61,423 bases of DNA, from contig NZ_JPVQ01000023.1 of NCBI RefSeq assembly GCF_000772965.1, forward strand, positions 1 to 61,423. Direction: 5' to 3'. The DNA is from Ureibacillus massiliensis 4400831 = CIP 108448 = CCUG 49529 (lineage in GTDB: Bacteria > Bacillota > Bacilli > Bacillales_A > Planococcaceae). Each line of letters begins with the position of its first letter. Position 1 is the stretch's first letter. Under the pieces are notes generated by a model, which saw only the letters and a program-made list of their open reading frames with translations, had not been told where the DNA came from and ran no database searches. Shown piece by piece: positions 51,736 through 54,491 of the stretch. The translations under genes and the position numbers were made by a program.

Positions 51736-52293
51736 ATGATGATAAAAACCATTTACATCTCTGGTTATAGACCCCATGAACTAGGCATTTTCAATGACAA
51801 ACACCCTGGCATTCCTATTATTAAAAAAGCGATTGAAAACGAGCTAAGAACCTTAATTGAAGAGGGACTTGAATGGGTCGTGCTAACAGGGCAACAAGGT
51901 GTTGAAACTTGGGCTGCAGAAGTGATACTTGAATTAAAGTCTGAATTTCCTCATCTAAAATATTCCGTCATTACCCCATTTTTAGATCAAGAAAAAAACT
52001 GGAACGAAATTAAAAAAGAAAAATATATTTATATAGTAAGTAAAGCGGATTTTGTCACAAGTGTTTCGAAACGCCCTTATGAGGCACCCTGGCAGTTTAT
52101 TGAAAAAGACAAATTTATCATTCAACATACCGACGCTTTATTATTGATTTACGATGAGGAAAATGAAGGCTCCCCTAAATATGTAAAAAAGCTTGCTGAA
52201 AAATATGCTGAAAAATTCGATTATCCTTTACGAATTATTAACGCCTATGATTTGCAAGTTATTGCAGATGAATTGCAACAAAAGGATTGGTAA
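51736..52293 (+). CDS. ypsA: YpsA (DUF1273, SLOG-fold protein)
   Basis: 185 aa. Pattern ISGYRPHELGIFNDKHPGI, LTGQQGVETWAAEV and YEAPWQF is that of the YpsA family, a Rossmann-like SLOG protein that affects cell division and oxidative stress in Bacillus and Staphylococcus. The usual partner gpsB is not next to it here. ATG behind AAAGGAGTACAT. Confidence 0.9.
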   Translation: MMIKTIYISGYRPHELGIFNDKHPGIPIIKKAIENELRTLIEEGLEWVVLTGQQGVETWAAEVILELKSEFPHLKYSVITPFLDQEKNWNEIKKEKYIYIVSKADFVTSVSKRPYEAPWQFIEKDKFIIQHTDALLLIYDEENEGSPKYVKKLAEKYAEKFDYPLRIINAYDLQVIADELQQKDW

Positions 52294-52343
52294 TAAAATT
52301 TATAGAATTTCATAAGCTATTTAATAATTTCCTAAAAAATATT

Positions 52344-52372
52344 CTGACATTTATAACAAATTTTGTTATAAT
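52344..52372 (+). promoter_or_regulatory. Promoter overlapped by a perfect 21-bp palindrome
   Basis: CTGACA (52344-52349), 17 nt, TATAAT (52367-52372). Bases 52351-52371 form a perfect palindrome with arms TTATAACAAA / TTTGTTATAA around one central T, filling the spacer and -10. Strong operator candidate; PerR-like in its outer TTATAA but not a canonical PerR box. Confidence 0.75.
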
Positions 52373-52416
52373 AGTCGAATAACTTAATTTTCCATTTATT
52401 TAAAGGAGTTGATTGG

Positions 52417-52728
52417 ATGAAAGAATTCAACATTGTCAATGAATTAAAGCCAATTAATGTGTCTCACGATACTTATCGGCGAGAATGTAGTTACACTCGT
52501 GGAATTCATATTCCGGAAACTGATTTTATGGAAATATTGGATATGATGTCCCAAGATGTAAGATTATATTTTGAATTTCATAATCCCGGTAAACCCATCC
52601 AGCAAGGGACTTACTTAAATGGGCATGCAGGATTAGCAAAAACCATTGCTCATTATTATCAGAATAAGAACTCTGTCCGCGCAGATGGAATTAATAACGG
52701 CAAAGATTTTTACGTGAAAATCATTTAA
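52417..52728 (+). CDS. Hypothetical protein, 103 aa
   Basis: Not recognised. Soluble, with balanced composition (TYRRECSYTRGIHIPETDF; FHNPGKPIQQGTYLNGH; HYYQNKNSVRADGINNG). No signal, helices or known motif. AAAGGAG lies 9 nt before the ATG. Its promoter has a tight palindromic operator, so it is likely controlled by a dedicated repressor. Single-gene transcript. Confidence 0.75.
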   Translation: MKEFNIVNELKPINVSHDTYRRECSYTRGIHIPETDFMEILDMMSQDVRLYFEFHNPGKPIQQGTYLNGHAGLAKTIAHYYQNKNSVRADGINNGKDFYVKII

Positions 52729-52764
52729 AATTTCTGAGGTGAATATAATTGAATACCCAATAGG

Positions 52765-52820
52765 AACATCGCTTGTTCTCGATAAGCTAACGCTTTTTCG
52801 TTCAGGCGGTGTTTATTTTT
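52765..52820 (+). terminator. Terminator of the 103-aa gene
   Basis: AACATCGCTTG / CAGGCGGTGTT with G-U pairs and a long loop, followed by TATTTTTTTT. Confidence 0.75.
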
Positions 52821-52834
52821 TTTAAAGGTTTTAT

Positions 52835-52867
52835 TTGACATTTCAATTGATAATGATTATCATTATC
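52835..52867 (+). promoter_or_regulatory. Fur-box promoter upstream of fumC
   Basis: TTGACA (52835-52840), 17 nt, TATCAT (52858-52863). GATAATGATTATCATTATC at 52849-52867 is a perfect 19-bp Fur box lying across the spacer and -10. Transcription should be repressed by iron-loaded Fur. Confidence 0.88.
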
Positions 52868-52869
52868 GT

Positions 52870-52941
52870 ATAGAAATAAATTTTTGAGCTGTACCCCCCT
52901 ATTTATATCTCTAAAATTTATTTCTCAAGTAAAAAGGAGTC
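52870..52941 (+). ncRNA. Structured C-rich leader of the Fur-controlled transcript
   Basis: About 70 nt between the Fur promoter and the small ORF. TTGAG / CTCAA (52883-52887 and 52924-52928) can close a loop that exposes the C6 tract at 52894-52899, the kind of element Fur-controlled sRNAs such as FsrA use to bind Shine-Dalgarno sequences. Whether it acts in trans is unknown. Confidence 0.4.
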
Positions 52942-52946
52942 TAATA

Positions 52947-53072
52947 ATGCTTTTTTCACACCACTTGACTCCTTCATTGACTATTCGCGTCACAAGACGC
53001 ATAATGGCTGTGACGCTTTTGAGTTACAGCCTTATTTGTTTTTATTCAATTCTTTTTTTGGGCATAACTTAA
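52947..53072 (+). CDS. 41-aa Fur-controlled leader ORF before fumC
   Basis: ATG 7 nt after AAAAAGGAG; 41 codons to TAA, 27 nt before fumC. Residues 1-20 are basic/polar (HHLTPSLTIRVTRRIM), 21-40 one membrane helix (AVTLLSYSLICFYSILFLGI). The ribosome site AAGGAGTC (52934-52941) is complementary to GACTCCTT (52967-52974) in codons 7-10, and a terminator-like hairpin (53006-53031) lies in codons 20-29. Could be a membrane peptide, a regulatory leader, or a chance frame inside an sRNA. Not recognised. Confidence 0.5.
   Translation: MLFSHHLTPSLTIRVTRRIMAVTLLSYSLICFYSILFLGIT
53006..53047 (+). terminator. Terminator-like hairpin inside the fumC leader ORF
   Basis: GGCTGTGAC / GTTACAGCC with an 8-nt loop, then TTATTTGTTTTTATT. 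An overlapping alternative stem GCGTCAC (52987) / GTGACGC (53010-53016) would exclude it, so two states are possible. Confidence 0.6.
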
Positions 53073-53099
53073 TATAGTAATACTAAGGGAGTTGATAGA

Positions 53100-54491
53100 A
53101 TGGACTATCGTATTGAAAAAGATACACTAGGAGAAGTACGTGTTCCAGCTGATAAAATTTGGGGAGCACAAACACAACGTAGTAAAGAGAATTTCCAAAT
53201 TGGGCAAGAAAAAATGCCTTTAGAAATCATTCGTGCTTTTGCAATCTTGAAAAAGGCAGCAGCTATTACGAACAACAAGTTAAACAAACTATCAGAAGGT
53301 AAAACTAATGCCATTGTTACAGCTGCTGATGAAATTCTATCAGGCAAGTGGGATGATCAATTTCCACTTGTTGTTTGGCAAACCGGAAGTGGTACTCAAT
53401 CCAATATGAATGTTAATGAAGTCATTGCCCACAGAGCAAATCAATTACTAGAAGAACAAGGCTCAGAAGAACGAGTACATCCAAATGATGACGTTAACAA
53501 ATCGCAAAGCTCTAATGATACTTTCCCAACTGCACTACATATTGCTGCGGTTGAAATCGTGGAAAACTATTTAATGCCTCGTCTTCAATTATTAAAGGCT
53601 ACATTAAAAGAAAAATCAGAGACATTTAATGACATTATTAAAATTGGTCGAACTCACTTACAAGATGCTACACCATTGACACTTGGTCAAGAAATTAGCG
53701 GATGGTACCATATGCTAGTAAAATCTGAGAAGATGATTATGGTCAATACACAATTTTTAAAAGACCTTGCAATCGGTGGTACAGCCGTTGGTACTGGTAT
53801 TAATGCACACCCTAAATTTGGTGACATGGTCGCTGAAGAAATTAGCAATCTTACTGGAAAAGATTTTGCTTCGTCAGAAAATAAATTCCATGCATTAACA
53901 AGCCATGACGAAATTGTTACAGCTCATGGTGCTTTAAAAGCATTAGCAGCGGACTTAATGAAAATCGCAAATGATGTTCGTTGGTTAGCTAGCGGTCCTC
54001 GTAGTGGAATTGGGGAAATTACAATTCCTGAAAATGAACCTGGTAGCTCAATCATGCCAGGAAAGGTAAATCCAACTCAATCTGAGGCGCTAACAATGGT
54101 CGTTACACAGGTTATCGGTAATGATGCTACCATTGCTTTTGCGGCAAGCCAAGGTAACTTTGAGTTAAACGTATTTAAACCGGTCATTATTTATAACTTC
54201 TTACAATCAGCTCGCCTACTTGCAGATGCTATGAAATCATTTAATGATAACTGTGCTGTTGGCATTGAGCCGAATATGGAAGTATTAGAACGAAACTTAG
54301 AAAATTCCTTGATGTTAGTAACTGCTCTGAACCCTTATATTGGCTATGAAAATGCGGCGAAAATCGCGAAAAAAGCACATAAGGATGGTTCTACTTTAAA
54401 AGAAGCTGCCCTATCTCTTGGGTTGTTAACAGAAGAGCAGTTTAACGAATATATCGATCCTAAGAAAATGATTTATCCAAACGCTGAGTAA
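53100..54491 (+). CDS. fumC: Fumarate hydratase class II
   Basis: 463 aa, iron-independent homotetrameric fumarase. Signature [11 protein letters not shown] at 315-325 with the catalytic Ser, [10 protein letters not shown] and [10 protein letters not shown] for substrate binding. Interconverts fumarate and malate in the TCA cycle. AAGGGAG lies 8 nt before the ATG. No good promoter lies in the 27 nt before it, so expression probably depends on the Fur-box promoter through the leader, or on unseen weak starts. Confidence 0.95.

Follow-up and report, generated by a model that had tools for sequence, protein, structure and literature searches.

The window analysed here, a stretch of 61,423 nucleotides, is contig C79 of a 4.0-Mb genome (G000). 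It carries, in this order, ypsA (PF06908), a 103-residue ORF for which the Pfam search gives no match, the element described below, and fumC (Table 1). The element begins with a promoter that is overlapped by a Fur box, GATAATGATTATCATTATC. The box agrees with the 9-N-9 palindrome without a mismatch and is the sole match in the window at three mismatches or fewer, where 0.15 is expected from shuffled sequences. This is the perfect 19-bp Fur box over a sigma-A promoter that an earlier note on this DNA had described. A Fur box over a promoter is a feature of the Fur-regulated iron-sparing sRNA class (RyhB, PrrF, FsrA, IsrR), which the element shares.

Table 1. Features of the element and of fumC, in positions of the window
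Feature	Positions	Strand	Remarks
Sigma-A-type promoter, TTGACA-17-TATCAT	52835..52863	+	11 of 12 consensus positions; hexamers and spacing identical in relatives L009 and L012
Fur box, perfect 9-1-9 palindrome	52849..52867	+	Overlaps the -10 hexamer; only match in the window
sRNA hairpin H1, C6 in the loop	52872..52925	+	z -5.06; putative transcription start near 52870
Seed UGUACCCCCC	52890..52899	+	Complementary to the fumA ribosome site GGGGGGUAUA (G000:C89:31949-31958); pairing, rarity, co-variation
Overlapping seed CCCCCUAUU	52895..52903	+	Complementary to the acnA ribosome site AAUAGGGGG; 9-bp pairing
Hairpin H2, AAGGAGTC/GACTCCTT	52934..52974	+	Ribosome-site sequestration of the earlier note; kept in relatives without the ORF
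41-codon ORF of the earlier note	52947..53072	+	Judged not a gene; frame broken in relatives; no Pfam match
Hairpin H3, GCGTC-ACAA-GACGC	52987..53000	+	One C-G pair of the window is U-A in a relative
Terminator-like hairpin and U-rich tail	53006..53047	+	Putative sRNA 3' end, possibly leaky
fumC, class II (iron-free) fumarase	53100..54491	+	PF00206 and PF10415

Predicted RNA structure and the 41-codon ORF

The predicted hairpin H1 has a minimum free energy of -13.8, and none of 200 shuffles folds that low. Its loop holds the C6 tract (52894-52899), which the earlier note had placed in a possible loop. In H2, the stretches at 52934-52941 and 52967-52974 are exact complements, in agreement with the claim that the ribosome site of the 41-codon ORF is complementary to the ORF's own codons. 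The terminator-type hairpin reported inside the ORF is also present (53006-53031), one of four in 3 kb where 1.6 are expected. When four sequences are aligned over H2, H3 and the terminator hairpin, 98.9% of the cells are paired; two-sided changes occur in only two pairs, and the covariation score is equalled or exceeded in 41 of 500 shuffles, a thin signal. H1 was left out of this count because its register shifts between relatives, and 10 of the 28 Fur-box loci introduced below were folded singly instead. Their z values range from -0.94 to -5.06, five at or below -2.96 and five at or above -1.92; the five weak folds (-0.94 to -1.92) comprise Solibacillus and two loci each of the short-loop and two-loop kinds.

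The 41-codon ORF starts with ATG and ends, as noted earlier, 27 nt before the ATG of fumC. The main idea of the earlier note was a translation-coupled attenuator, in which translation of this ORF decides whether polymerase reads through into fumC. The ORF exists and its ribosome site overlaps a stem, but the relatives contradict the idea. In G015, whose searched stretch shares 94% identity with the window, a stop ends the frame after 10 codons, and no ATG, GTG or TTG lies 3-13 nt past AGGAGTC in G016, G001 and G022; G016 carries a different ATG ORF of 33 residues in the stretch. A search of Pfam with the ORF gives no match either. The ORF thus lacks the conservation that one would expect of a peptide-coding leader, whereas the stem is retained in relatives, with 1 of 32 cells unpaired in the four sequences counted. 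Therefore, the small ORF is rejected as a gene, and we regard the attenuator as extremely improbable. Judging from the sequences compared, the ORF is best seen as chance and the sequestered ribosome site as an RNA stem.

Conservation in the genus and in sister genera

The genus set comprises 25 genomes of Ureibacillus in the GTDB sense, several named species of which are labelled Lysinibacillus. A Fur box with at least 15 of 18 positions lies upstream of fumC in 21 of them (all 18 positions in 17), and in all 21 a C run starts 24-29 nt past the box. G005, G006, G011 and G024 have no Fur box or element before fumC and still keep the G-run fumA site described below. Among named fumC loci, 23 of the 79 scanned (of 80) have a Fur match of at least 15 positions; this search was anchored on fumC, and sRNA copies elsewhere would escape it. 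Thirteen of the 23 are loci of the genus that the count above includes. Seven more make up the sister-genus set, with two from Solibacillus, three from Lysinibacillus-labelled genomes that lie outside the genus set, and two from Caryophanon. The remaining three, from Paenibacillus mesophilus and two Brevibacillus (L070, L074, L075), have Fur-like boxes scoring 15-16 of 18 at -128, -70 and -89 before fumC, where direct control of fumC by Fur or PerR is possible.

In the 150 nt that follow the Fur box, 26 of the 28 loci (21 from the genus and 7 from sister genera) have a run of at least four C, the two Caryophanon loci having none. In these two (L062, L064) the Fur box is kept, the C tract is down to CCC or CC, and the fumA G6 site is kept; loss of sRNA function there is possible. 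The earlier note had made its reading depend on conservation of the Fur box and stems, and both recur in relatives. Fur box, C tract and stems therefore exceed chance; the ORF does not.

The element occurs in the genus in three architectures. The first has one C loop and long 3' hairpins (the window, G015, G016 and G001; G022 has a different 3' part), the second has one C loop and a GGCAAATC-type hairpin, and the third has two C loops (G014, G017, G019, G020 and G021). The fumC-linked RNA also contains the motif TTTCTCC at 8 of the 28 loci (L009, L013, L020, L025, L058, L059, L061 and L065); this motif, too, might pair with ribosome sites.

Predicted pairing of the C loop with fumA

The class I (iron) fumarase is found by a PF05681 search in all 25 genus genomes; the B. 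subtilis genome, among 14 controls, gives no match to the family. A single-chain fumA is present in 24 of the 25 (that of G014 is cut by a contig end), and G022 has only the shorter kind. All 24 single-chain genes carry a G5-G7 tract before the start, which is the ribosome site. In the window genome, fumA encodes 516 residues (PF05681 and PF05683) and lies on another contig. Its ribosome site, GGGGGGTATATATTCAATG, is one of 65 matches to G6-then-ATG, the reversed-pattern control giving 31.

The loop sequence UGUACCCCCC can form ten consecutive pairs with the fumA site; its UGUA is base-paired within the predicted H1. The 10-nt complement, GGGGGGTRYR with G-U allowed, occurs at three places on both strands of the 4.0-Mb genome (reversed-pattern control, 9): the sRNA gene, the fumA site, and C34:80331, beside a repeat-like stretch. 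Next to this third site (L312, G000:C34:79900-81000) lies a stretch with numerous short repeats resembling GATAATAGACAA. The 3.6-Mb genome of L. odysseyi contains the 12-nt complement TCTAGGGGGAAA at two places, one being fumA and the other the sRNA locus. G017, G019, G020 and G021 have 12, 7, 7 and 7 copies of the 10-nt complement TTTTGGGGGG, one of them at fumA in each genome, and therefore the seed alone is not specific there. Rarity of the seed in these four genomes was accordingly rejected as proof. AGGGGG sites before fumA are also found in several genera that lack the element.

In 19 of 20 genus genomes and 3 of 7 from sister genera, the loop can form a contiguous helix of at least 9 bp, through the C tract, with the fumA site of its own genome. 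The loops of G012 (7 bp), L. sphaericus OT4b (6 bp) and L. xylanilyticus (8 bp) pair weakly, and in Caryophanon no fumA helix passes through a C tract. The flanks of loop and fumA site match as CCCCUCAGA with UCUGGGGGG in most one-loop genomes, ACCCCCCAAAAU with AUUUUGGGGGGU in G021, CCCCCUAAA with UUUAGGGGG in G001, UUCCCCCCAG with CUGGGGGGAA in Solibacillus, and UUUCCCCCUAGAGA with UUUCUAGGGGGAAA, over 14 bp, in L. odysseyi. In G003, G004, G008, G012 and G013, RNAduplex predicts that the start codon of fumA takes part in another helix, over AUGUCUC.

In sequence, then, loop and fumA site change together across species. When partners are permuted among the 24 distinct pairs, the true pairs have a mean energy of -19.56 against -17.63 (s.d. 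0.39), and none of 20,000 permutations is as good; the helix energies, here and below, use nearest-neighbour stacking values entered by hand, flat for G-U, and serve for ranking only. With one representative per clade, sister genera included (13), 14 of 20,000 permutations are as good, and with the strictest set of nine with sister genera 257 of 20,000; an earlier RNAduplex permutation over 20 genomes gave 13 of 10,000. Over all genomes, 0, 312 and 2,322 of 20,000 permutations are as good for fumA, acnA and sdhC, respectively, and over nine clades of the genus only, 1, 2,516 (first 65 nt) and 14,951. The tests take no account of phylogeny and the clade representatives were hand-picked. That sdhC, with the same phylogeny, gives no signal argues against shared ancestry alone as the source of the fumA signal, although this is less than a formal correction.

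Other putative targets and ranking in the window genome

An overlapping part of the loop can pair with the ribosome site of acnA. This site was fetched from 24 of the 25 genomes and reads TAGGGGGAG or TAGGGGGAT in them. In the five two-loop genomes, the second loop can pair with acnA over 11-14 bp and the first over 5-6 bp; the acnA site is GGGGGAU instead of GGGGGAG in these five and in the one-loop genome G002. As the five genomes are closely related, the second-loop pairing may be one evolutionary event. With 150 nt and nine clades, 178 of 20,000 permutations are as good for acnA. The sdhC site is G5-G7 followed by UA in 25 of 25 genomes, and sdhC pairs with the loop yet shows no co-variation. 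No G-rich site was found at leuC.

We ranked 40 G-run sites of the window genome, 37 in front of ORFs of at least 45 residues behind G6-ATG plus fumA, acnA and sdhC, which were added by hand. By contiguous pairing, fumA is 4th, sdhC 6th and acnA 26th; the other places among the first five go to two DctM transporters (1st and 5th), a response regulator (2nd) and an FMN reductase (3rd); a class-II glutamine amidotransferase protein, read as gltB, is 9th and a Fer4_20 protein, read as gltD, 14th. At L128 and L220 (G000:C1:37911 and G000:C103:7157), an FMN reductase (PF03358) and a DctM transporter (PF06808) have 12-bp loop complements at their ribosome sites, longer than that of fumA. By RNAduplex loop energy, fumA is 19th of 38 G6-site genes, a mid-table place for which single-genome duplex energy was rejected as proof. 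Thus, with fumA 4th of 40 and 19th of 38, the window genome alone would not single it out; the cross-species comparison does. As background, none of 47 window frames (at least 120 codons, with an SD-like stretch) reaches -18 kcal/mol, the best being -17.9, against -22.5 for fumA, -21.9 for sdhC and -18.5 for acnA; the threshold was chosen after the acnA value had been seen.

Proposed mechanism

We consider it quite probable that the stretch from 52835 to about 53047 encodes a Fur-repressed sRNA directed against fumA, adjoining the gene of the iron-free isozyme and acting in an iron-sparing manner like FsrA and IsrR. When iron is present, Fur would occupy the box over the -10 hexamer and block transcription. 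When iron is absent, an RNA of roughly 175 nt would be made, its 5' hairpin displaying the C run in the loop. The loop would then pair with the G-run ribosome site of the fumA mRNA and block its translation, and overlapping parts of it could pair with the ribosome sites of acnA (aconitase) and sdhC (succinate dehydrogenase). The adjoining fumC would supply an iron-free fumarase, so that the cell would save iron without losing fumarase activity. Pairing with ribosome sites of iron enzymes, another feature of iron-sparing sRNAs, is here read from sequence. The FsrA-like sRNA that the earlier note offered as its alternative gains support from the conserved Fur box and C tract, from the complementarity of the C tract to ribosome sites of iron enzymes, and from the pairing that co-varies across species.

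The Fur promoter might instead make the 5' leader of fumC, so that iron starvation would raise fumC by read-through and the C-rich hairpins would be mainly leader structure. A Fur box does lie before fumC in four genera, with a C tract in three, and termination is not evident everywhere: a consensus scan for terminators past the hairpin is negative in L009, L012, L058 and L065, and in G016 and G001 the tail past the hairpin is only UUAUUAC. However, the scan does find a terminator-like site in the window and in L061, and T7 and T8 runs that it missed follow the hairpin by eye in L058 and L065. A TATAA-containing stretch also lies close before fumC in three of the four element-less genomes (G011, G005 and G006, not G024), a hint of a separate fumC promoter; a search for a sigma-A promoter of fumC gave no clear one. 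The leader reading, moreover, leaves the co-variation of loop and fumA unexplained, and we find it unlikely.

Both could hold at once, a mostly terminated sRNA silencing fumA and a read-through fraction raising fumC. This overlaps the sRNA explanation and draws on the same evidence, together with the weak or absent terminators in some relatives, while a separate fumC promoter would speak against it; it is possible, with the balance somewhat against it. Put as a one-locus isozyme switch, a single Fur-controlled unit would yield an sRNA that shuts off the iron fumarase, and aconitase as well, and read-through from the same unit would provide the iron-free replacement fumarase; certain species would have divided the duties of the sRNA, with one C-rich loop serving fumA and a second acnA. 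We put this forward tentatively. If it is true, co-evolution of sRNA and target could be traced loop by loop across the genus.

For the sRNA directed against fumA, the new point is its likely main target, the iron fumarase. If the proposal is true, an iron-requiring fumarase is simply swapped for a cheaper enzyme when iron is short, and one more Gram-positive iron-sparing sRNA is added, widespread in a group of Bacillales. Across the twenty-odd species, loop and ribosome site show matched changes, a natural series in which sRNA-target specificity is directly testable.

Comparison with known systems

A full-text search of open-licence PMC papers found no description of this element. Rfam, searched with window positions 52000-54000 at E up to 10, gave no match to FsrA or IsrR, models of which it may not hold; a PrrF match (E 9.9, 16.9 bits against a gathering score of 90) spans promoter and Fur box only, and the loci of seven relatives match no family at the gathering score.

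FsrA, IsrR and MrsI are named as Gram-positive iron-sparing sRNAs in the part of PMC9410917 drawn on here, and FsrA, IsrR and BrrF belong to this functional class by passages of PMC12871923, PMC9410917, PMC11257911 and PMC7377471, which also name RyhB and PrrF. FsrA of Bacillus subtilis is described there as Fur-repressed and C-rich, with targets including sdhC, citB, gltAB and a C4-dicarboxylate permease (excerpts of PMC12871923, PMC11257911 and PMC9410917). By this description, the element resembles FsrA in its Fur box and C-richness, and in the window genome sdhC, acnA, the putative gltB and gltD and two DctM G-run sites can pair with the loop. Unlike FsrA, its main co-varying target is a class I fumarase, a family unmatched in B. 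subtilis.

A second Fur-box RNA is present at another locus in nine genus genomes (L032-L040), with C6-C7 in an ACGTTCT/AGAACGT-type hairpin, the TTTCTCC motif in seven of nine, and, by eye, a terminator-like hairpin and a T-rich run; in the window genome, only Fur-box-sized pieces of it matched. It may be the FsrA counterpart.

IsrR of Staphylococcus is described, in the sections of PMC9410917 used, as having Fur boxes and C-rich regions in hairpin loops (CRR1 with 4-7 C) and as conserved across its genus. The element is like it, by description, in Fur box, C-rich hairpin loop and genus-wide conservation; IsrR, by the same sections, differs in sitting elsewhere in the genome and in having three C-rich regions. 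The amount of FumC is unaffected or higher with IsrR, according to an excerpt of PMC11257911, and FumC is valuable under iron limitation in E. coli, according to one of PMC7064253.

BrrF of Burkholderia cenocepacia, a low-iron sRNA, reduces fumA, and a rise in fumC depends on it; the portion of PMC7377471 that describes this reports no Fur box at fumC. Compared by that description, BrrF differs from the element in its Gram-negative host and in the lack of a Fur box at fumC.

Nearest in logic is s-SodF of Streptomyces, an sRNA from one superoxide dismutase gene that silences the isozyme with another metal, as set out in part of PMC3919588. Both would be metal-controlled isozyme swaps, in which the sRNA arises at the locus of one isozyme and its pairing partner is the mRNA for the second. 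Whereas s-SodF, by that account, is processed from a 3'UTR, the RNA proposed here would have its own promoter, upstream of the isozyme gene.
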